NCBI RefSeq assembly: GCF_003008615.1
Contig: NZ_CP027657.1
Location: 1,860,001 to 1,924,000 of the forward strand
Source: Pseudomonas mendocina
Lineage (GTDB): Bacteria > Pseudomonadota > Gammaproteobacteria > Pseudomonadales > Pseudomonadaceae
Reading direction: 5' to 3'
Length of the DNA stretch: 64,000 nucleotides
Shown piece by piece: positions 37,692-46,838 of the stretch. Numbering within the stretch: the stretch's first letter is position 1; each line of letters starts with the position of its first letter. The notes under the pieces were generated by a model. It had not been told where the DNA came from and searched no databases. It was given only the letters and a program-made list of their open reading frames with translations. The position numbers and the translations under genes were made by a program.

Positions 37692-38048
37692 TCACTCGAA
37701 CTGCGTGGCCACCTTCGACCACAGGCTTACCGGACGCCCCTTCTGTTCGAAGAAGGCGATCTCACGCTTGATGCCGGAGCTCAGATCCCAGCCGGGCAGA
37801 TCCAGAATGATCAGTTCTTCCATGGCTTCCATGAACACGGCATCCACAGGGCCCCAGAGCTTACCGATAGCGGCGCTGTCCCTGTTCTCGAACGCCAGGT
37901 TGATCGGGTGAGACATGGACACCTGGCTGAACACGCAGTGGCCTGACTCGATGATGGTCGCCGCCACTACGTTGCATGCCAGGAAGCGTTCATAAACGAC
38001 CTCCGCATCGGCATGACTGTAGGGACAGGCGAGAAAAATCTTACGCAT
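37692..38048 (-). CDS. DUF1937 family protein (nucleoside deoxyribosyltransferase-like fold)
   Basis: 118 residues: MRKIFLACPYSHADAEVVYERFLACNVVAATIIESGHCVFSQVSMSHPIN and ILDLPGWDLSSGIKREIAFFEQKGRPV. The KIFLACPYS opening and WDLSSGIKREIAFF motif match DUF1937, which resembles nucleoside 2-deoxyribosyltransferases and sirtuin/TIR-like nucleotide-binding folds. Often phage-associated in other genomes; here no phage genes are near. Function not known. Confidence 0.8.
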   Translation of the reverse strand: MRKIFLACPYSHADAEVVYERFLACNVVAATIIESGHCVFSQVSMSHPINLAFENRDSAAIGKLWGPVDAVFMEAMEELIILDLPGWDLSSGIKREIAFFEQKGRPVSLWSKVATQFE

Positions 38049-38097: not shown

Positions 38098-39330
38098 TCA
38101 GGCAGGGCTCAACTCGGAGCTGCCGACAGGCTCGGCTTTGCGCTCCTCAGCCTCATAGCGGTTGGCTGCCGGGACGGAGATCTTCACGGCGATGAAGACC
38201 GCCAGCAGGCCACCGAACAGCTTGGCCAGCAGGATCGGCATGATCAGCGAGGGCTGGAAGTTGGCGGTGAAGGCCAGGTGATCGCCGATGGTGGCCTGGG
38301 CGCAGACGCCCATGGCGACGCACAGCACCTTGTCGCGGGCATTCATGCTCTTGAACATGTGGTACACGGCGATGATGTTCGCCAGCACCATGACGAAGGC
38401 TGCGGCACCCGGCGCGGAAAGACCCAGCTGGCGGCCGAGCATTTCCATCGGACGACGGCAGTACTTGTTGAACAGGTAGCAGATCGGGAAGGTACCGGCG
38501 AGCATGATGCCAATGTAGCCGGCGATCTCGATGGCGCGGAACAGCTCCTTCTCGTCGGCGAACATCGGGTCGAAGCCCCAACCCACGGTCTTCGAGAAGA
38601 ACCCGGTGAAATGCTCGACGATGGCGAAGGCCAGGATCATCTTGATGAAGGCGTCCATCAGCTTGCCGAAGATCAGGAAGCCGTTGACCATCATGGTCGC
38701 GCGGTAGCGCAGGCCAGCGGCGAGCAGGAAGCAGAAGACGAACAGCGGCGCCAGCAGTTTCAGCGCACCGACGAAGTCGAGGGTCAGCAGATGCGTGGCC
38801 TGCGAACTGGTCGAGACGATGTCGCGCACCGGCAGGTTGAACAGGGTGATCATCATCAGCGCCGCCAGCACCGCGAAGGGGATGCTGATCAGGCCGGCCA
38901 TGGCCCCCAGGGCCAGGTACTTGTGATCCTTGCGCTCGAGCATCATCAACCCGACCGGGATCAGGTAAACGATGGTCGCACCGGAGGTGTAGCCGACGAT
39001 CATCGCGGCGATCCACATATCACGGTTGGCCGTCAGCGCATCGGCCAACTGATAACCGCCCATGTCCACGGCGATGATGGACAGGGCCGCGATGGATACG
39101 TCCGAACCCATGGCCGCGAAGTACGGGCCGAGCACCAGCGAAATCAGTTTCGACAGATAGGGGATCGAAATCATGATCCCTGCCTGCGCGAGAAACACCG
39201 GGCCTATGGAATGGATGCCGTTGACGAACTCCTTCCCCAGTCCGCTCTGTGGTCGAACCACCGAAGCGAAGGCCCCCACCACTGCGCCAATCATTATCAG
39301 GTAGATAACGAAGTTTCCGAACTCAGCCAT
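38098..39330 (-). CDS. EutH-type ethanolamine permease family protein
   Basis: 410 residues, about 11 hydrophobic helices, with EutH-like blocks GSDVSIAALSIIAVDMGGYQLADALTANRDMWIAAMIVGYTSGATIVYLIPVGL and MGVCAQATIGDHLAFTANFQPSLIMPILLAKLFGG. EutH imports ethanolamine in enteric bacteria. No eutBC, eutR or microcompartment genes are present, and the neighbours are a GlpR-type repressor and polyol-type enzymes, so the transported substrate may differ. Start ATG 39330 (MAEFGNFVIYL) preferred over upstream 39372. A TGGCATG-bearing sigma-54-like box lies about 150 nt upstream. Confidence 0.88.
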   Translation of the reverse strand: MAEFGNFVIYLIMIGAVVGAFASVVRPQSGLGKEFVNGIHSIGPVFLAQAGIMISIPYLSKLISLVLGPYFAAMGSDVSIAALSIIAVDMGGYQLADALTANRDMWIAAMIVGYTSGATIVYLIPVGLMMLERKDHKYLALGAMAGLISIPFAVLAALMMITLFNLPVRDIVSTSSQATHLLTLDFVGALKLLAPLFVFCFLLAAGLRYRATMMVNGFLIFGKLMDAFIKMILAFAIVEHFTGFFSKTVGWGFDPMFADEKELFRAIEIAGYIGIMLAGTFPICYLFNKYCRRPMEMLGRQLGLSAPGAAAFVMVLANIIAVYHMFKSMNARDKVLCVAMGVCAQATIGDHLAFTANFQPSLIMPILLAKLFGGLLAVFIAVKISVPAANRYEAEERKAEPVGSSELSPA

Positions 39331-39478
39331 CACATTCACCCTAGTCTTCTTACTTGACGCCCAGACCGCCAACGCAAGGTTCTTTCTATATGGCGCCTCT
39401 CACGCAGAGGCGTGTCCTATCGTTCTCGTCGCTCTTGCGAGCCATCTCGACCAGCCCTGTGAGACAGCGGAATATCAA

Positions 39479-39493
39479 CCACTATGCATGCCA
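39479..39493 (-). promoter_or_regulatory. Weak sigma-54-like element upstream of eutH
   Basis: On the minus strand the site reads TGGCATGCATAGTGG. The -24 GG is correctly placed and the first seven bases equal those of the two better sites at 44693 and 45165, but the -12 GC is GG here. It may be a poor promoter or an unrelated operator sharing TGGCATG. Confidence 0.3.
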
Positions 39494-39511
39494 TTTTGAG
39501 GTTTAAATGTG

Positions 39512-39550
39512 GGAATGACCGTTGATAACCACCAAATCAGTCATCATTCC
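39512..39550. promoter_or_regulatory. Imperfect dyad, candidate DeoR operator
   Basis: GGAATGACCGTTGAT (39512-39526) and ATCAGTCATCATTCC (39536-39550) are inverted with 11 of 15 positions paired. It lies just upstream of the TATAAT ahead of the regulator gene, where an autoregulatory operator would sit. Confidence 0.35.
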
Positions 39551-39741
39551 TGTGATTTCCGTCTATAATGCCCGCAACCACAGCGCTGGACGCCGAGGCG
39601 TGAAAGCACGAAACCCGCAACCGGCGTCCTTGCACACGCCAGCCCAGCGGCATTGTTCTCTTCTTTCGCCTCAAAGGTGTGCCGAGGTAACACACACTCG
39701 CCCCGTTATGTGGCGGTCAGGTAACAGCTTCAGGATGCGAT

Positions 39742-40548
39742 ATGCGCCCCAATGAACGACGGCAACACATTCTCGAACTGCTTCGCCAGCGCGAGAGGAT
39801 CTCGGTGGATGAACTGGCCCGACTCCTGGGCACCTCGCAGGAAACCATTCGTCGCGACCTCGCCGAGCTGGCCGACAGTGGCCAGGTGACCAAGTACCAC
39901 GGCGGCGCCTCCCTGCCCCCCAGCGGCGAGCATGAAAACGCCTTCCAGACACGGATGAACGAGTTCGCCAGCGAGAAGAAAGCCGTAGCCCGCTATGCCG
40001 CAGGACTTTACGCACCGGGCGACAGCATCCTGATCGACACGGGCACCACGACGCTGTTCTTCGCGCGCGAGCTGGCCCGCCTGAGCCGCATCACCGTGAT
40101 CACCAACTCGCTGCAGATCGCCACCAGCATCGGCGCCAGCGGCAATCGCGTGTTCATGATCGGTGGTGAATACCGCCCCGAGTCCGCGCAGAACACCGGT
40201 GCACTAGCCCTGGAGCAGATCGCCCGGTTCAACGCCGAGCATGCGGTGGTCACCATCGGCGCCCTCAACCCGGATGGCGCCTTCGACTTCTCCATCGAAG
40301 AGGCCGAGATCACCCGTGCGATGATCGCCAGAACCCGCTACCTGACGGTCATCGCCGACTCGTCGAAGATGGGCCGTCGGGCGCTTTTCGAGGTCTTTCC
40401 GCTGAGCCGTATCGACCGACTGATCACTGATCGCAAGCCGCTGGGAGCATTGGCCGAGGCCCTGCAGGCTGCCCACGTCGAGGTGCACGAAGCGCCTGCA
40501 CTGAACCGGATGGAGTCAGGCCCGCTGGGCGCGGGCCTGAAGCGCTGA
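39742..40548 (+). CDS. DeoR/GlpR family transcriptional repressor
   Basis: 268 residues. N-terminal DeoR HTH (MRPNERRQHILELLRQRERISVDELARLLGTSQETIRRDLAELADSGQVTKYHGGASL, 1-58) and DeoRC sensor domain with DTGTTTLFFARELARL (ligand phosphate-binding loop), GGEYRPES and DSSKMGRRALFEVFPL. GlpR-type proteins sense phosphorylated polyols or sugars. It sits between eutH (divergent) and the FGGY kinase gene (convergent, 8 nt apart), so it probably controls the whole cluster. Confidence 0.92.
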   Translation: MRPNERRQHILELLRQRERISVDELARLLGTSQETIRRDLAELADSGQVTKYHGGASLPPSGEHENAFQTRMNEFASEKKAVARYAAGLYAPGDSILIDTGTTTLFFARELARLSRITVITNSLQIATSIGASGNRVFMIGGEYRPESAQNTGALALEQIARFNAEHAVVTIGALNPDGAFDFSIEEAEITRAMIARTRYLTVIADSSKMGRRALFEVFPLSRIDRLITDRKPLGALAEALQAAHVEVHEAPALNRMESGPLGAGLKR

Positions 40549-40556
40549 GCGCTGCC

Positions 40557-41972
40557 TCAGCGCCAGCTACGGCAACGGGTCACCGCATCGGCGAACGTCT
40601 CACGCCACTGGCGGGCGACGCCGGCCTCGACTTTCGGCCGGAAGCTGGTGCTGGTGTTGCGCGGCGGCGCAAGATCGACGCCTACACCCCGAGCCGCCAA
40701 CGCCGCACAACCGAAGGCCGTCAGTTCGTCGAAGCGCTGAGTCACGATGCAGCGTTGCAGGGCATCGGCGAGGAACTGGGCGAAGTAAGGGCTGCGCGCC
40801 AGGCCACCATCGATGGACAACTGGTCGGTGACGTTGAGAAAGCCGTCCATCGCCGAAATCACCTCGACACTGCGCAGTGCCACACCTTCCAGCAGCGCCT
40901 GGCACATGTCCTGCCGGCTGGTAGCGGCGTTCATGCCGACCCACAGCGCGGCCGCGCTACGATCCCAATGCGGACAGGCAAGGCCTGAAAGCGCCGGCAC
41001 GAAGGCCAGTTGCCGACCGATGGCCGGCGCCTGGTCGAATGCCGCCAGCTCGGAAAAGTCGCTGAACAGCCCGAGCCGGCCCGCCCATTCGACGGCCGCG
41101 CTGGCGTCGTAAACGCCACCGTCCATGGCGTACTGCGGCTTGCCGTCGATCTGCCAGGCGATGGTCGCCAGCAGGCCCTTCTCGGGTGCACGGATGATCT
41201 CCTCGCCGGTCAGCGTCAGCGCGAAGGCACCAGTGCCGAAGGTGATCTTCGCATCGCCAGGGTTGCGGCAGCCGTGGCCGTAGAGCGAGGCCTGCTGATC
41301 GACCAGCGAGGCGGTCACCGGCGTGGCCCCGACCTCGCCGAAATGCCCCACGGTATCGCGGATCTCCGGCAAGGCTTCGAGCGGCACGCCGAACAGCGCG
41401 CACAACTCGGGATCCCACTGAGCGGTGGCCAGGTTCATCAGCGAGGTACGCGAGGCAGTGGTGACGTCCGTGGCGAAGACCCCGGTCAGGCGATCCAGGA
41501 AATACGCATCGGTGGTGCCCAGGCGCAGCCGACCTTCACGCTGGGCCTGCTTTGCAGCGGGCAGGTTGCGCAGAATCCAGGCCAGCTTGGATGCAGAGAA
41601 ATAGGGGTCGAGCGGCAGCCCGGCGCGCTCCAGGGTCAGGGCCTCGCCACCCTCCGCGCGCAGGCGGTTGATCTCGTCGGCGGTGCGGTTGTCCTGCCAG
41701 ACGATGACCGGTGACAACGGCTCGCCAGTGCGGGCATCCCACGCCAGGCAGCTTTCCCCCTGGTTGGCCAGGCCGATGGCATCCACGCGACCGGTTGCCT
41801 CGAGGCAGCGCTGCAGGTTGTTCAACAGCTCCAGCGGATCATGCTCGACCCAGCCCGGGTGAGGATGGTGCTGCTGATGGCGCAGGGCGAGCTGAATGTC
41901 GGCGCTGCCGTTGGGTGAAACCACCAGCACGCGGGTGCTGGTGGTTCCCTGGTCTAGAGCTGCGATACGCAA
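40557..41972 (-). CDS. FGGY-family (GlpK-like) carbohydrate/polyol kinase with altered substrate site
   Basis: 471 residues. GlpK-like throughout: N-terminal phosphate loop AALDQGTTSTRVLVV, PGWVEHDPLELL, VIVWQDNRTAD, DPYFSASKLAWIL, VDQQASLYGHG, TFGTGAFAL and LSIDGGLARSPYFAQFLAD. By alignment to E. coli GlpK, the glycerol-contacting pair Arg83-Glu84 (NQRE) is NQGE here (G72, E73); the Tyr of DPYF and the catalytic Asp of DQQ are kept. The lost Arg suggests a substrate other than glycerol. Last gene of the minus-strand group after two FAD enzymes (27 nt after the second). Confidence 0.9.
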   Translation of the reverse strand: MRIAALDQGTTSTRVLVVSPNGSADIQLALRHQQHHPHPGWVEHDPLELLNNLQRCLEATGRVDAIGLANQGESCLAWDARTGEPLSPVIVWQDNRTADEINRLRAEGGEALTLERAGLPLDPYFSASKLAWILRNLPAAKQAQREGRLRLGTTDAYFLDRLTGVFATDVTTASRTSLMNLATAQWDPELCALFGVPLEALPEIRDTVGHFGEVGATPVTASLVDQQASLYGHGCRNPGDAKITFGTGAFALTLTGEEIIRAPEKGLLATIAWQIDGKPQYAMDGGVYDASAAVEWAGRLGLFSDFSELAAFDQAPAIGRQLAFVPALSGLACPHWDRSAAALWVGMNAATSRQDMCQALLEGVALRSVEVISAMDGFLNVTDQLSIDGGLARSPYFAQFLADALQRCIVTQRFDELTAFGCAALAARGVGVDLAPPRNTSTSFRPKVEAGVARQWRETFADAVTRCRSWR

Positions 41973-41999
41973 GGTTTTAACTCCCCTCGGCAGAGGCTG

Positions 42000-43238
42000 T
42001 TAACGGCGGATGAAGTCGACTTCGAGTTGCCGGGTTCCCTCGGGAATCCCCAGCTCGGCAATGGGCACCAGCATGCGCCGCTCGGGCAGGCAGGATCGCG
42101 GTTTTGACCAGATGTCCCGGCCATCGGCCCGCACCACCAGTTGCCCCGAGGTGGCCGTGCTGACCCGCAGTTGCAGGTGCCTGAGCCCCGCGATGGCCCC
42201 CGGCACCAGCACCTGGGGCACGCAGAGTTTCAGGGCGCTGCCGCAGCGGACGTCGACGCCATCTTCGACGGGCGGCAGCTCGCCATGCAGATCCCGCACG
42301 ATGAGCCCCGCGATACGCCGCCCTTCGCGGAACGACCAGCCTGCCGTCTCGATCGGGCGCAGCAGATTACCGGCCGCAAAATAGGCGGGATCCGAGCAAC
42401 GCCCGAACTGGTCGATCACTGGCCCACCGCTCCTGTTGTCGATACGCAGGTCGCTCATGCGCGCCAGGCTCGACTCGGGCGTGAACTCGCCGGTCAACAG
42501 CACGCCATCGCACTCGAACTCGCGCACCTCGCCACTGGCCAGCCTGACACTGGCCGACTCGACCCGGCCGAGACCGTTGATCTGCACCAGCTCGGCGCCA
42601 TAGTGCATCGGCACGCCACACAACCGCGGGAACAGCGACAAGGGCCAGCGCGCAGTCGCCCGCGCGTTGCGCTCGATCATCGCCACTGGCTTGATACCGG
42701 CCCGACGGCAACTGAGTACGGCTGACAGGCTGACCAGCTCGGTGCCGACGATCAGCGGACGCTCGAAGGGTTTCAGGTGCTGCAGATACAGATAGGACTG
42801 CAACGCGCCGGTGTTGATCACGCCGACCGGCCGATCCCCGCCCAGTAGACGTGCGGAGCGCGGCGCCTCGCGTGCCCCGGTCGCCAGCAGCACGCGCCGG
42901 GCCTGGATACGGAATGCGCCTTCCGCAGACACGCCCTCGATGCATCCGCCAGCAGCCAGTCGGGTGGCGCTGTGCCCGAGCAGGATGCGCACACCGGCCT
43001 TTTCCGCCTCTTCGACGTTGCGCTGCGCGTAGTCCGGCCCGCTGTAGATTCGGCCGTATTCGCGGAAACCGAACGGCGGATGCCCGCAGTGACGGGGAAT
43101 GCCACCGGCGGCCGCTTCGCGCTCGATCACCACCACATCGTCGATACCCTGGCGCCGCAGCTCCACGGCGGCGGCCAGGCCCGCCGGACCACCACCGATG
43201 ATCGCGACATCGACGTTATGCATATCAGTGGTTTTCAT
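42000..43238 (-). CDS. FAD/NAD(P)-binding oxidoreductase, partner of the GlpA-like enzyme
   Basis: 412 residues. N-terminal dinucleotide motif VAIIGGGPAGLAAAVELRRQG (11-31), the motif GGIPRHCGHPPFGF (45-58, typical of HcnB/SoxA-alpha/Thermotoga TM1433-type partners), a second nucleotide region PLIVGTELVSLSAVLSCRRAG (161-181) and an FAD-closing FAAGNLLRPIETAGWSFREGRRIAG. Residues 325-412 form an extra beta-rich domain I do not recognise. It starts 14 nt inside the 3' end of the GlpA-like gene. It likely passes electrons between NAD(P) and that enzyme. Confidence 0.88.
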   Translation of the reverse strand: MKTTDMHNVDVAIIGGGPAGLAAAVELRRQGIDDVVVIEREAAAGGIPRHCGHPPFGFREYGRIYSGPDYAQRNVEEAEKAGVRILLGHSATRLAAGGCIEGVSAEGAFRIQARRVLLATGAREAPRSARLLGGDRPVGVINTGALQSYLYLQHLKPFERPLIVGTELVSLSAVLSCRRAGIKPVAMIERNARATARWPLSLFPRLCGVPMHYGAELVQINGLGRVESASVRLASGEVREFECDGVLLTGEFTPESSLARMSDLRIDNRSGGPVIDQFGRCSDPAYFAAGNLLRPIETAGWSFREGRRIAGLIVRDLHGELPPVEDGVDVRCGSALKLCVPQVLVPGAIAGLRHLQLRVSTATSGQLVVRADGRDIWSKPRSCLPERRMLVPIAELGIPEGTRQLEVDFIRR

Positions 43239-44640
43239 GGCAAACACCTGTTGCGAGTGGAACGGCCAGGCGGCCGGCGCTGAGTTCGGCGACCTGCGCC
43301 CCACAATAGAAACCCTGGCAGCGCCCCATGCAGGCCCGCGTACGGCGCTTGAGCCCGCCAAGGTCGCCAGGCGGCAACAGCCCTTGCAGAGCATTCTCGA
43401 TCTCGCGGCGGGTCACCATCTCGCAGTGGCAGACGATCTCGCCATAGCCGGGCCGCTGGTAATCACGCGGCTGATGCTCGGCCAGGTTCGGCATGCTCGG
43501 CCACTTCAGGGTCTGCTCGTCGAGCGCCTCATGGCGGCGCTGGTAAAGCCGGAATACATGCTGGGCGATGCCCAGTGCAGCCGTCAGACCGGTGGAGCGA
43601 ATGCCGCCGACGCTGATCCAGTTGCGCCCCGGCACCGGGTGAATGCGGTAATGCTTCTTGTCGCTGGCCGGGCGCAGCCCCGCATAGGTCGCCGTGACCG
43701 GCATGCCGGCCAACCCCGGCACCCGCTCGACTGCAGCCTCGACCAGTTGCGCCAGCGTCTCGGACTCCAGACCGGCATGCAGGCGATCGTCCTGTTCCTC
43801 GGCGGTCGGACCGACCAGCAGGTTGCCGAAGATCGTCCGGGTCAGCACGATCCCCTTGGTGCGCTCGTTCGGCACCGGCAGAACGATGGCGTTGAGCAGC
43901 TTCGCCGAGGCCTTGTCGAAAACGACGAACTGCCCCTTACGCGGGTGAATGCTGAAGGACGCCTCACCCAACAGACGCTGCTCCAGCTGGTCGCCGAACA
44001 ACCCGGCGCAGTTGATCACCGTCGTAGCCGTGACATAGCCGGTGGAGGTTTCCAGTACCCAGTGGCCACCATCGAAGAAGCCGCCCAGCACTTCCGTGCC
44101 GAAGCGCGCCTGGGCGCCGGCCAGCATGGCCTGGAGCAGATAACCCAGCGGCGCGGACCAGGGGTCGATGAGAAACTCGCCCGGCACGTCGACGCCGCCC
44201 AAGGCACGCGTCGACAGGTGCGGTTCACGCCGGCGAATGGTCTCGGCATCGATGAAACGCACATTGCTCACGTCATTGGCATGCGCCTGCTGCACGATAC
44301 CGTCCAGCTTGCTCATGTCCTCGTCAGTCCAGGCCACGACCATCGCGCCGGTGCGCAGCACCGGCAGGTTCATCCGCTGATGGATGTCGAGGTATTCGCG
44401 GTAACCGGCCTGCATGCATTCCAGCTCGACACTGCCCGAGGGCGCATCGAAACCCGTGTGGAGAATCGCACTGTTGCCCTTGCTGGCCCCGGACAGGATG
44501 TCCTCACCTTTCTCGAGCAACAGCACCCTGGCACCCTCCAGCGTGAAGCGGCGGGCCATCGCACAGCCGACGACACCGCCACCGATGACGACGACATCAT
44601 AGGCGCTGTCCGGCTTGGGCTTGGGATTCAGATCATTCAT
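43225..44640 (-). CDS. GlpA-like FAD-dependent dehydrogenase with C-terminal BFD [2Fe-2S] domain
   Basis: 471 residues. DAO-type FAD fold with DVVVIGGGVVGCAMARRFTLEGARVLLLEKG (15-45), ASKGNSAILHTGFDAPSGSVE (GlpA-like substrate loop) and TYAGLRPASDKKHYRIHPVPG. The C-terminus has a bacterioferritin-ferredoxin-like cluster domain: C404-x-C406 and C441-x4-C446 in GRCQGFYC, as in anaerobic GlpA. It probably oxidises a phosphorylated polyol made by the FGGY kinase. First gene of the minus-strand group; a sigma-54-type box lies about 50 nt upstream of its ATG. Confidence 0.9.
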   Translation of the reverse strand: MNDLNPKPKPDSAYDVVVIGGGVVGCAMARRFTLEGARVLLLEKGEDILSGASKGNSAILHTGFDAPSGSVELECMQAGYREYLDIHQRMNLPVLRTGAMVVAWTDEDMSKLDGIVQQAHANDVSNVRFIDAETIRRREPHLSTRALGGVDVPGEFLIDPWSAPLGYLLQAMLAGAQARFGTEVLGGFFDGGHWVLETSTGYVTATTVINCAGLFGDQLEQRLLGEASFSIHPRKGQFVVFDKASAKLLNAIVLPVPNERTKGIVLTRTIFGNLLVGPTAEEQDDRLHAGLESETLAQLVEAAVERVPGLAGMPVTATYAGLRPASDKKHYRIHPVPGRNWISVGGIRSTGLTAALGIAQHVFRLYQRRHEALDEQTLKWPSMPNLAEHQPRDYQRPGYGEIVCHCEMVTRREIENALQGLLPPGDLGGLKRRTRACMGRCQGFYCGAQVAELSAGRLAVPLATGVCHENH

Positions 44641-44692
44641 TGCATTGCCTGTTTGACTTCGGCCATCTCGACCGTGATGACGGATAGCCAGT

Positions 44693-44707
44693 GCAGTGCA
44701 CATGCCA
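44693..44707 (-). promoter_or_regulatory. Sigma-54 (-24/-12) promoter of the dehydrogenase-kinase operon
   Basis: Minus strand TGGCATG-TGCA-CTGC, followed by A. Consensus TGGCACG-N4-TTGC(A) is matched at all but two positions, with invariant GG and GC spaced correctly. Transcription would begin near 44681, about 40 nt before the ATG at 44640. Confidence 0.6.
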
Positions 44708-44898
44708 TCGAGCATAATTTTGTGGATATGTGGTTTTATCCGGTCAATAACAGTCGGTGACTGCCCATGCGACAAGTCAGGCGCCAGACTGCAACAGGGC
44801 CGACGGGTCGCCAGTCCCCTCGTATCTCCTGAGCGCAGCGCACTGCCAGGGGCGAGTCGAGGCTTTTCAGGAGAGCTGTTTTCATTCAGGCACGTTAT

Positions 44899-44917
44899 CG
44901 GAACTGTCACCGTTCCG
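44899..44917. promoter_or_regulatory. Dyad, candidate activator site
   Basis: CGGAAC-TGTCACC-GTTCCG, perfect 6-bp arms with a 7-nt spacer, and a further GTTCCG half-site just downstream. It lies about 200 nt from one sigma-54 box and 250 nt from the other, enhancer-like distances. Confidence 0.35.
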
Positions 44918-45164
44918 GGGGTTCCGCTGTGCAGCCTACGCCTGATACAGCGCTACACACTGGTGCATTCATTGCTACATTTCGACTCACAAAGATCAAT
45001 TCATTCAGACACCTAGCGAAAAACACCGACGTCTTCATGGATGATCCTGTGTAATTCAAAAACGACTTCCACACATTTCAGCACGCTCGATATCGCCAGG
45101 TTTCATTGACAAAACTGCGTGAATTCCACAAACAGAACACAGATACCAACAAATAAATAAACGC

Positions 45165-45179
45165 TGGCATGCCGGGTGC
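45165..45179 (+). promoter_or_regulatory. Sigma-54 (-24/-12) promoter of the GapN-like gene
   Basis: TGGCATG-CCGG-GTGC matches TGGCACG-N4-TTGC at all but two positions with correct GG/GC spacing. The predicted start near 45191 lies about 22 nt before the ATG at 45213, leaving room for the SD GAGGTAAGAG. Confidence 0.6.
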
Positions 45180-45212
45180 GTAGTTGCCACTGATCATCAC
45201 GAGGTAAGAGAC

Positions 45213-46838
45213 ATGACCGCTACCTGCTCGCTCGCCCAGCTTTTTCCCTCCCTTGACGACATCCCCGAGCAGTACCGCCTGGGCGAACCGATCGTACAAC
45301 GCGAATACCTGATCGACGGCACCCTGCAGCATTGGTCTGGGCCACTGGCCAGCGTGCGCAGCCCGATCCACCTGCGAACCGAGGCAGGCGAGGAGCAGGT
45401 CATCCTCGGCAGCACACCTCTGCTCGACGCGCAAACCTCACTGGCGGCACTGGAGTCGGCCGTGCGCGCCTACGACAGCGGCCAGGGCGCCTGGCCAACC
45501 ATGCGCGTGGCCGAGCGTATCCAGCACGTGGAAACCTTCCTCAGGCGCATGCGCGAGCAGCGCGATGCCGTGGTCAAGCTGCTGATGTGGGAAATCGGCA
45601 AGAACCTCAAGGACTCGGAAAAGGAGTTCGACCGCACCTGCGACTACATCCTCGACACCATCGAAGCGCTCAAGGCGCTGGATCGTCGCTCCAGCCGCTT
45701 CGAACTGGAGCAGGGCACGCTCGGGCAGATCCGCCGGGTGCCGCTGGGCGTGGCACTGTGCATGGGGCCCTACAACTACCCGCTCAACGAAACCTTCACC
45801 ACGCTGATTCCGGCACTGATCATGGGCAACACCGTGGTCTTCAAGCCCGCCAAGTTCGGCGTACTGCTGATCCGCCCCCTGCTCGAAGCCTTTCGCGACA
45901 GCTTCCCCGCCGGCGTCATCAACGTCATCTACGGCAGCGGGCGCGAGACCGTCAGCGCCCTGATGGCCAGCGGCAAGGTCGACGTCTTCGCCTTCATCGG
46001 CACCAACAAGGGGGCCAGCGCACTGAAGAAGCTGCACCCCAAACCGCACCGCCTGCGCGCGGCCCTGGGCCTGGATGCGAAGAATCCCGGCATCGTGCTA
46101 CCCGAGGTGAATCTGGACAACGCGGTCAACGAGGCCATCACCGGCGCCCTGTCGTTCAACGGCCAGCGCTGCACCGCGCTGAAGATCCTGTTCGTCCATG
46201 AAGCGGTGGTGGATGCCTTCCTGGAACGCTTCAACAGCAAGCTGGCGAGCCTCAAACCGGGCATGCCCTGGGAGCCCGGCGTGGCCCTGACGCCGCTGCC
46301 CGAGCCGGGCAAGACCGACTACCTCAGTGACCTGGTAGCCGATGCCGTGGCCCACGGCGCCAGCATCACCAACGCAGGGGGCGGTGACGTCCGTGGCTCG
46401 TTCTTCTACCCAGCGGTGCTGTATCCGGTGACGCCGCAGATGCGTGTGTACCAGGAAGAGCAGTTCGGCCCGGTCGTCCCCATCGTCCCCTACCGCGACC
46501 TGAAGACCGTGATCGACTACGTCCTGCAATCGGACTTCGGCCAGCAACTGAGCATCTTCGGTAACGACTCGGCAACCGTGGGCAGGCTGGTGGACGCCTT
46601 CGCCAACCAGGTCGGACGCATCAACATCAATGCCCAGTGCCAACGCGGCCCGGACACCTACCCGTTCAACGGACGCAAGGACTCCGCCGAAGGCACCCTG
46701 TCGGTGCACGATGCCTTGCGCGTCTTCTCCATCCGCACGCTCGTGGCCACCCGTTTCGACGAGGACAACAAGGCGCTGATCAGCGAGATCATCCGCAATC
46801 GGGAGTCCAGTTTCCTGACTACGGACTATATCTTCTGA
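45213..46838 (+). CDS. GapN-like NADP-dependent aldehyde dehydrogenase, atypical active site
   Basis: 541 residues, ALDH superfamily. Family blocks: GVALCMGPYNYPLNETFTTLIPALIMGNTVVFKPAKFG (179-216), catalytic C320 in SFNGQRCTALKILF, and EEQFGPVVPIVPYRD. GapN enzymes oxidise glyceraldehyde-3-phosphate to 3-phosphoglycerate without making ATP. The usual general-base motif LELGGKNP reads LGLDAKNP here (G286 in place of Glu), so chemistry or substrate may differ. It diverges from the GlpA-like operon and is probably co-regulated with it. Confidence 0.85.
   Translation: MTATCSLAQLFPSLDDIPEQYRLGEPIVQREYLIDGTLQHWSGPLASVRSPIHLRTEAGEEQVILGSTPLLDAQTSLAALESAVRAYDSGQGAWPTMRVAERIQHVETFLRRMREQRDAVVKLLMWEIGKNLKDSEKEFDRTCDYILDTIEALKALDRRSSRFELEQGTLGQIRRVPLGVALCMGPYNYPLNETFTTLIPALIMGNTVVFKPAKFGVLLIRPLLEAFRDSFPAGVINVIYGSGRETVSALMASGKVDVFAFIGTNKGASALKKLHPKPHRLRAALGLDAKNPGIVLPEVNLDNAVNEAITGALSFNGQRCTALKILFVHEAVVDAFLERFNSKLASLKPGMPWEPGVALTPLPEPGKTDYLSDLVADAVAHGASITNAGGGDVRGSFFYPAVLYPVTPQMRVYQEEQFGPVVPIVPYRDLKTVIDYVLQSDFGQQLSIFGNDSATVGRLVDAFANQVGRININAQCQRGPDTYPFNGRKDSAEGTLSVHDALRVFSIRTLVATRFDEDNKALISEIIRNRESSFLTTDYIF

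Follow-up and report, generated by a model that had tools for sequence, protein, structure and literature searches.

We examined a 64,000-nucleotide stretch of Pseudomonas mendocina DNA (assembly GCF_003008615.1, contig NZ_CP027657.1, positions 1,860,001 to 1,924,000; hereafter the window). It carries a conserved module that encodes a DUF1937 protein, a permease of the EutH family (EutH2), a DeoR-type repressor, two flavoproteins (FADA and FADB) and a kinase of the FGGY family (KIN), and to which a neighbouring GapN-like aldehyde dehydrogenase does not belong. We propose, at about even odds (a probability of roughly 0.5), that this is a DeoR-regulated catabolic module for a small cationic analogue of glycerol or ethanolamine, that is, an amino alcohol. 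Import would fall to EutH2 or, in other species, to a different permease; KIN, which lacks Arg83 of the glycerol kinase GlpK and keeps its acidic contacts, would then phosphorylate the amino alcohol. FADA and FADB would together form a two-flavin, [2Fe-2S] dehydrogenase that oxidises the carbon adjacent to the phosphate-bearing carbon, electrons would pass on through the iron-sulfur centre of FADA, and the product would join the triose-phosphate pool. The best single candidate for the substrate would be serinol (2-amino-1,3-propanediol), converted by way of serinol phosphate to dihydroxyacetone phosphate (DHAP) and ammonia.

A conserved module and its neighbours

The linkage of these genes was followed through a FADB profile search of named genomes and metagenome-assembled genomes, which gave 243 confirmed candidates; the best 80 loci were kept and, being picked by similarity to FADB, are no census (L097, the same locus as L036, was counted once). 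FADA lies immediately before FADB in 80/80 loci, 78 of them by the strict script rule and the remaining two with overlapping open frames. KIN family members are present in 62 of the 80 and, by the strict rule, follow FADB immediately in 56 of the 62. The exceptions are open-frame overlap only (L026, L089), a permease in between (L046), or a kinase that is more distant or on the other strand (L057, L072, L096). A DeoR-type gene occurs in 53/80 loci. Separate searches of plasmid records with FADB (E 1e-60) and KIN (E 1e-110) returned the identical 12 of 12 records, in every one of which FADB and KIN stand side by side with FADA before them. A class-wide sample of 369 genomes was too sparse for a test of linkage, with EutH in one (the host genome) and FADB in two. 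For several neighbours of the alphaproteobacterial loci, the thresholds applied gave no match to a family.

DUF1937 is found in all 21 Pseudomonas-type loci (20 records labelled Pseudomonas and one Pantoea sp. Ap-967), as well as in L048 (Buttiauxella), L118, L119, L125 and L127, and it lies between KIN and an APC permease in plasmids of Agrobacterium, Roseateles, Ensifer and Sinorhizobium. The window's copy (37692..38048, minus strand; 118 amino acids) scores 126.5 bits against PF09152, above the gathering score of 23, and is 69% identical to PDB 1t1j, a 'hypothetical protein' to which the P. aeruginosa DUF1937 is identical. Its model (predicted local distance difference test score 92.9) also matches 1t1j structurally; the other structural matches, deoxyribosyltransferases and DNPH1, are weak (E 0.002-0.05, template-modelling score about 0.5-0.6). 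By its modelled fold, DUF1937 may be an N-glycoside hydrolase or transferase.

In the window, the DUF1937 gene lies 49 nt after EutH2 (38098..39330, minus strand), whose open reading frame (ORF) is open to 39372 and whose likely ATG start is residue 15. The DeoR/GlpR-family regulator gene (39742..40548, plus strand; PF08220 and PF00455) is followed on the minus strand by KIN (40557..41972), FADB (42000..43238, starting at M53 of a longer ORF) and FADA (43225..44640), and then by the divergent GapN-like gene (45213..46838, plus strand). An earlier sequence-only reading had described the cluster without DUF1937, and the window's ORF list places its six ORFs where it had. Its family calls (EutH, DeoR/GlpR, FGGY kinase, a DAO-type protein binding flavin adenine dinucleotide with a BFD-like [2Fe-2S] domain, a second flavoprotein and an aldehyde dehydrogenase) proved real, as did the two divergent pairs, the 572-nt gap, which is that between FADA and GapN, and the position between rep and xpt (by our reading of the ORFs). 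It had also reported no ethanolamine ammonia-lyase, and none was found among the cluster ORFs. The six genes it drew as one unit were thus correctly recognised, but it wrongly included GapN and did not notice DUF1937, the loss of Arg83 from the kinase or the operator-like sites. An Rfam scan of the window gave no match. The 5.77-Mb host genome carries elsewhere a second EutH (49% identical to EutH2), followed by eutB and eutC and with an aldehyde dehydrogenase gene upstream, and a second glycerol kinase (40% identical to KIN) with a glpR-type gene; the cluster genes are therefore paralogues of standard ones.

GapN was ruled out as a member of the module by its occurrence. A close relative is present in 42 of 119 sampled genomes of the host's family, whereas a KIN orthologue (>80% identical) is found in 2 of the 119, the host included, and an EutH2 orthologue in the same two; in the other of these genomes (G060, that of L036) GapN is on a separate contig. 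Near-absence of GapN beside other loci agrees with this, since among the 21 Pseudomonas-type loci a close relative (>900 bits) occurs only in L019 and L021, several genes away. The idea that GapN passes an aldehyde product into central metabolism is consequently not supported, as GapN is not linked to the module. Another family genome, G056, has four GapN-like matches, one of them partial.

The sequence-only reading had also described the locus as inserted in an otherwise P. aeruginosa-like gene order; it is not foreign to P. aeruginosa. Two P. aeruginosa-labelled plasmid records contain the same six module genes in the same arrangement, in another neighbourhood, between a muiA/sulfate-binding-protein side and a ccm side. 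No GapN stands beside them, and their kinase is 81% identical to KIN. From gene order, we take this stretch to be chromosomal PA1487-PA1492 of PAO1. Among the KIN protein clusters, one that bears the name P. aeruginosa comprises 1327 sequences. In the available part of PMC8151288, PA1487 is among the putative glycerol kinases, of which only GlpK is described as characterised; PMC8768829 was checked for P. aeruginosa gene numbers and gave no match. In open-licence literature, the titles and abstract starts among the matches listed contained no pathway for the cluster and none for serinol or aminopropanediol catabolism; PA numbers were not among the search terms. If the proposal is true, it would explain a six-gene P. 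aeruginosa cluster for which we saw no described function.

Some loci depart from this arrangement. PotD-like ABC genes adjoin a FADA-FADB pair that lacks KIN in a number of loci, most of them alphaproteobacterial (among them L090, L094, L060 and L082), and L090 additionally has a gene resembling glutamine synthetase/gamma-glutamylputrescine synthetase, an aldehyde dehydrogenase and an iron-type alcohol dehydrogenase; gene context of this type suggests that the flavoprotein pair may serve another substrate in loci lacking KIN. In L048 (Buttiauxella) and L091 (Raoultella), FADA-FADB and a DeoR gene are accompanied by an ABC transporter (in L091 with a binding protein of the ribose type), an MlrC-like protein and an FGGY kinase other than KIN. 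Judging from these gene families, the two loci, the former of which also has DUF1937 as given above, represent a variant of the module with another kinase.

The kinase and the flavoprotein pair

KIN is a GlpK paralogue that falls below both glycerol-kinase models, with 419 bits against a cut-off of 590 for TIGR01311 and 371 against 498 for PRK00047. KIN forms one clade (support 100/99) in a phylogeny that also contains 18 GlpK and two further FGGY kinases; its placement next to three of these GlpK has weak support (86/65). Arg83, Glu84, Tyr135, Asp245 and Phe270 make up the GlpK signature and contact glycerol, according to the available text of PMC3245297 and PMC2680290, and the former, in that text, describes the signature as identical in all GlpK clusters. 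At these positions we found GEYDF in 62/62 KIN sequences (61 of the 62 KIN loci, the incomplete L042 being left out, plus the window, where the Gly is G72) and REYDF in 18/18 GlpK (17 of 19 fetched GlpK regions plus the host genome's own). Four of the five contact residues are therefore kept. Loss of the single positive charge with retention of the acidic residues is what a cationic substrate would be expected to favour, and a larger or smaller neutral substrate may be an alternative to a cationic one. To judge from the aligned residues, the 'glycerol kinase' labels in databases cover, in KIN, a family without a defining GlpK residue, and such labels would need correction if the proposal is true.

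FADA is a DAO-fold dehydrogenase with a C-terminal [2Fe-2S] BFD-like domain. It is nearest to the type 2 glycerol-3-phosphate oxidases, at 186 bits against a cut-off of 460, and scores 116 bits against the GlpA model, below the cut-off of 553. The active-site set of mpGlpO, which we take to be His, Lys, Arg and Ser, aligns with H61, K262, R323 and S349 of FADA; these residues, and Cys 404, 406, 441 and 446 of the 2Fe-2S domain, are invariant in 75/75 FADA sequences (the window and the 74 of 80 loci that passed filters on length and score). FADB is a Pyr_redox_2-type partner subunit whose best NCBIfam match, the sarcosine oxidase alpha family, is weak (69 against 1164 bits). A combination of DAO and Pyr_redox_2 subunits with a 2Fe-2S centre is presumably shared with opine oxidase, dye-linked proline dehydrogenase and sarcosine oxidase; in contrast to enzymes of that kind, FADA keeps the hydroxyl-oxidising His of glycerophosphate oxidase and a kinase is linked to it.

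Together, these enzymes resemble the GlpK-GlpABC and GlpK-GlpO pathways in pairing an FGGY kinase with a DAO-fold flavin dehydrogenase under a DeoR/GlpR-type regulator, and the BFD-like [2Fe-2S] domain of FADA is as described for GlpA in the available part of PMC11962113. The module differs from those pathways in that KIN lacks Arg83 and forms a separate clade, FADB is of the Pyr_redox_2 type, an amine-type permease is linked in Pseudomonas and DUF1937 is present.

Permeases and a shared operator-like motif

EutH2 scores 658 bits against NF011668, the EutH ethanolamine permease model, exceeding the equivalog cut-off of 575, and 367 bits against PF04346. The genome's other EutH adjoins eutBC, and no such linkage exists in the EutH2 cluster. 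The sequence-only reading had staked itself on EutH being conserved with the enzymes in other genomes, and EutH2 is indeed present in 17 of the 21 Pseudomonas-type loci, with a further EutH immediately after KIN in L059 (Kordiimonadaceae). In the four loci that lack it (L021, L024, L027, L028), an APC permease gene, c16, separates KIN from the DeoR gene, and L019 carries c16 as well as EutH2. A phylogeny of 26 EutH sequences unites the 20 linked to KIN, that of L059 included, in one clade (100/100) and leaves six outside it, two of which adjoin eutBC. The L059 protein groups among the Pseudomonas ones on a long branch although its kinase is distant, suggesting that EutH2 joined the L059 locus separately. 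If the proposal is true, EutH gains a second, non-Eut context with its own regulon. The module shares with the eut pathway (EutH-EutBC) a permease of the EutH family, which is related to the host's eutBC-linked one as stated above, and in Chelatococcus eutBC lies beside the module; it differs in lacking an ammonia-lyase, in the phosphorylation and flavin oxidation predicted in its place, and in the separate clade of EutH2.

A similar pairing occurs in Paraburkholderia elongata (L039), where KIN is followed after 22 nt by the opening of an ORF that scores 564 bits against the ethanolamine permease model TIGR00908 (cut-off 382) and a 66% identical paralogue of this permease lies beside eutB and eutC. 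Thus, in two lineages and with two permease families, a relative of the local eutBC-linked transporter accompanies the module. KIN itself is found in 2 of 144 Paraburkholderia genomes. Transporters of 2A0304-like APC, PotB/PotD-like ABC, SDF or MFS type occur elsewhere, most of them scoring under the curated cut-offs. GlpF did not turn up in the scan of neighbouring genes, which did not extend to every one of them.

A third EutH group, 46-48% identical to EutH2, was seen in Pseudomonas-family genomes (L133-L136); the 11-12 kb retrieved contained no recognisable eutB or eutC. Chemoreceptors with a PDC/dCache-like sensor domain lie inside or beside the module in three loci (L021:13436-15469, L037:11763-13736, L025:11517-13745). 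Their ligand might be the module's substrate; an amine motif was looked for in these receptors and could not be shown.

In the 21 Pseudomonas-type loci, window excluded, the start regions (360 nt each) of the FADA, EutH and DeoR genes hold 45 copies of the motif WWTCGGTCA in 17.2 kb, or 2.62 per kb, and the remaining 369 kb hold 21, or 0.06 per kb. This enrichment is due partly to selection, as the motif was chosen from k-mers common to the same loci. Two rearranged control motifs had no sites in the start regions and 6 and 2 elsewhere. The motif is present in the FADA start regions of 17/21 loci and in the EutH/DeoR start regions of 13/21, so that a shared operator-like motif ties EutH2 to the enzyme operon in related Pseudomonas loci. 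The DeoR protein may be what binds these predicted sites. In the window, the core CGGTCA occurs within degenerate forms of the motif between EutH2 and the DeoR gene (39516..39521, minus strand; context ATCAACGGTCATT) and upstream of FADA (44741..44746, plus strand; context TTATCCGGTCAAT); the bare core is uninformative, since 38% of 360-nt segments drawn at random from these loci contain it. A 12-mer common to the window's two control regions was rejected as the operator because it is absent from relatives, and the CGGTCA motif took its place.

Except for its GapN step, the earlier idea is supported by the invariable FADA-FADB pairing and the shared operator-like sites: the EutH homologue may bring in a polyol or amino alcohol, the GlpK-like kinase would phosphorylate it, and the flavoprotein pair would act together in oxidising the phosphate ester.

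Product and candidate substrates

An indication of the product comes from an Agrobacterium plasmid, on which FADA, FADB, KIN, DUF1937, an APC permease, a class II fructose-bisphosphate aldolase (535 bits, cut-off 496) and a fructose-bisphosphatase-like gene (annotated as class 1; 278 bits, cut-off 349) form a same-strand row, preceded by genes for a creatininase-family protein and a carbon-nitrogen hydrolase. This run suits DHAP, or glycolaldehyde phosphate, as product. Since the core consists of a kinase and a dehydrogenase only, the product should already be a central metabolite; glycerol and serinol would both yield DHAP, and aminopropanediol would not. Amine-type permeases and the loss of Arg83 argue against glycerol, and we therefore rank serinol first, followed by glycerol, ethanolamine and aminopropanediol. 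Our tentative view, which we hold as the leading candidate and still as a doubtful one, is that the module could encode an undescribed kinase-dependent route from serinol to DHAP and ammonia, in which a serinol kinase descended from GlpK would act ahead of a serinol-phosphate dehydrogenase with two flavins and a 2Fe-2S centre. Such a route might, with the same reserve, run in the reverse direction of the DHAP-aminating synthesis of serinol. It could perhaps extend through P. aeruginosa, other Pseudomonas, rhizobia, Paraburkholderia and many Alphaproteobacteria, in all of which the kinase is named glycerol kinase, and would give serinol and other amine-bearing analogues of glycerol a breakdown route open to direct test.

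That the module is instead a second plain glycerol pathway, in which KIN would act as a normal glycerol kinase and FADA-FADB as another form of glycerol-3-phosphate dehydrogenase, EutH2 being incidental or recruited for glycerol, seems unlikely to us. It would agree with the origin of KIN on the GlpK side of the FGGY tree, the retention of E84, Y135, D245 and F270, the likeness of FADA to type 2 glycerol-3-phosphate oxidase with its hydroxyl-activating His, the Agrobacterium aldolase and fructose-bisphosphatase, and the (putative) glycerol kinase labels of databases and, in its available part, PMC8151288. The host, however, already has its own glpK with a glpR-type gene, KIN lies under both glycerol-kinase cut-offs, the Arg83 of the signature described in PMC3245297 (in the text available) is Gly throughout KIN, and the transporters linked in Pseudomonas-type loci are amine-type, GlpF being absent from the scanned part of the neighbours. 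Less likely again is a B12-independent catabolism of ethanolamine in which KIN would make phosphoethanolamine, FADA-FADB would release glycolaldehyde phosphate and ammonia, and an aldolase would lead on to sugar phosphates. In its favour, both EutH2 and the permease of L039 fall in families of ethanolamine permeases, the lack of a third carbon and hydroxyl might make the loss of Arg83 tolerable, and the class II aldolase and fructose-bisphosphatase follow the module in Agrobacterium; yet the pathway would be redundant, given eutBC in the host, in the Paraburkholderia L039 genome and in Chelatococcus, where a DeoR gene in a row with eutB-eutC abuts TRAP-FADA-FADB-KIN (L123 1-2894). The KIN-linked transporter is, moreover, a diverged paralogue of the eutBC-linked one (49% in the host, 66% in the L039 genome), and the conserved FADA His suits a hydroxyl. 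We consider 3-amino-1,2-propanediol, or an N-substituted form, improbable and the last of the candidates: KIN would phosphorylate its terminal hydroxyl and FADA would oxidise the C2 hydroxyl, which fits both the catalytic His and the altered charge of the KIN pocket, as well as the amide hydrolases near some loci, but the product, 1-amino-3-phosphohydroxyacetone, would need a further enzyme, for which the recurrent neighbours offer no consistent candidate.

Several observations weigh against the amino-alcohol proposal or its serinol form. In the available part of PMC10726252, the mpGlpO His abstracts the proton of the C2 hydroxyl, and its conservation in FADA points to oxidation of C-OH rather than C-N. 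The conserved His thus suits glycerol or aminopropanediol better than serinol or ethanolamine, and this is the main weakness of the serinol assignment; with serinol phosphate as substrate, the His would have to take its proton from an ammonium instead. The FADA active site is just as invariant in 15 sequences from loci lacking KIN, and FADA-FADB occurs without this kinase in 18 of the 80 loci, some of them on short contigs. Transport is a further difficulty. An above-cut-off ethanolamine permease beside KIN is limited to L039; the matches in L067 and L083 reach 359 bits against 382 and are on the opposite strand, and the second KIN-bearing Paraburkholderia genome has no such permease at E 1e-100. 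The APC permeases c12, c16 and those of L118/L119 score far under every curated cut-off, seven loci (L070, L086, L120-L123, L126) have TRAP genes, and several others have peptide-type ABC genes. Such diversity of transporters is the chief argument against the same amine being the substrate in all loci. In addition, both operator-like sites of the window fail the strict motif, and the aldolase and fructose-bisphosphatase accompany the module in one record only.

Natural occurrence and neighbouring hydrolases bear on where a substrate could come from. Serinol occurs in sugarcane and in rhizobitoxine biosynthesis, where it is made from DHAP, according to the available part of PMC3222319, and serinol or ethanolamine is amide-linked in the Campylobacter jejuni capsule, as stated in that of PMC12096443. 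Amidase, creatininase-family or carbon-nitrogen hydrolase genes lie near some loci and, with the eutB-eutC genes beside the Chelatococcus module, speak for an amine as substrate. Near FADA-FADB in three loci, there are genes resembling phosphoric/sulfuric ester hydrolases, sulfatases and PhoD (L072:5947-7611, L059:6188-7672, L069:4471-6003), which possibly release the substrate from esters.

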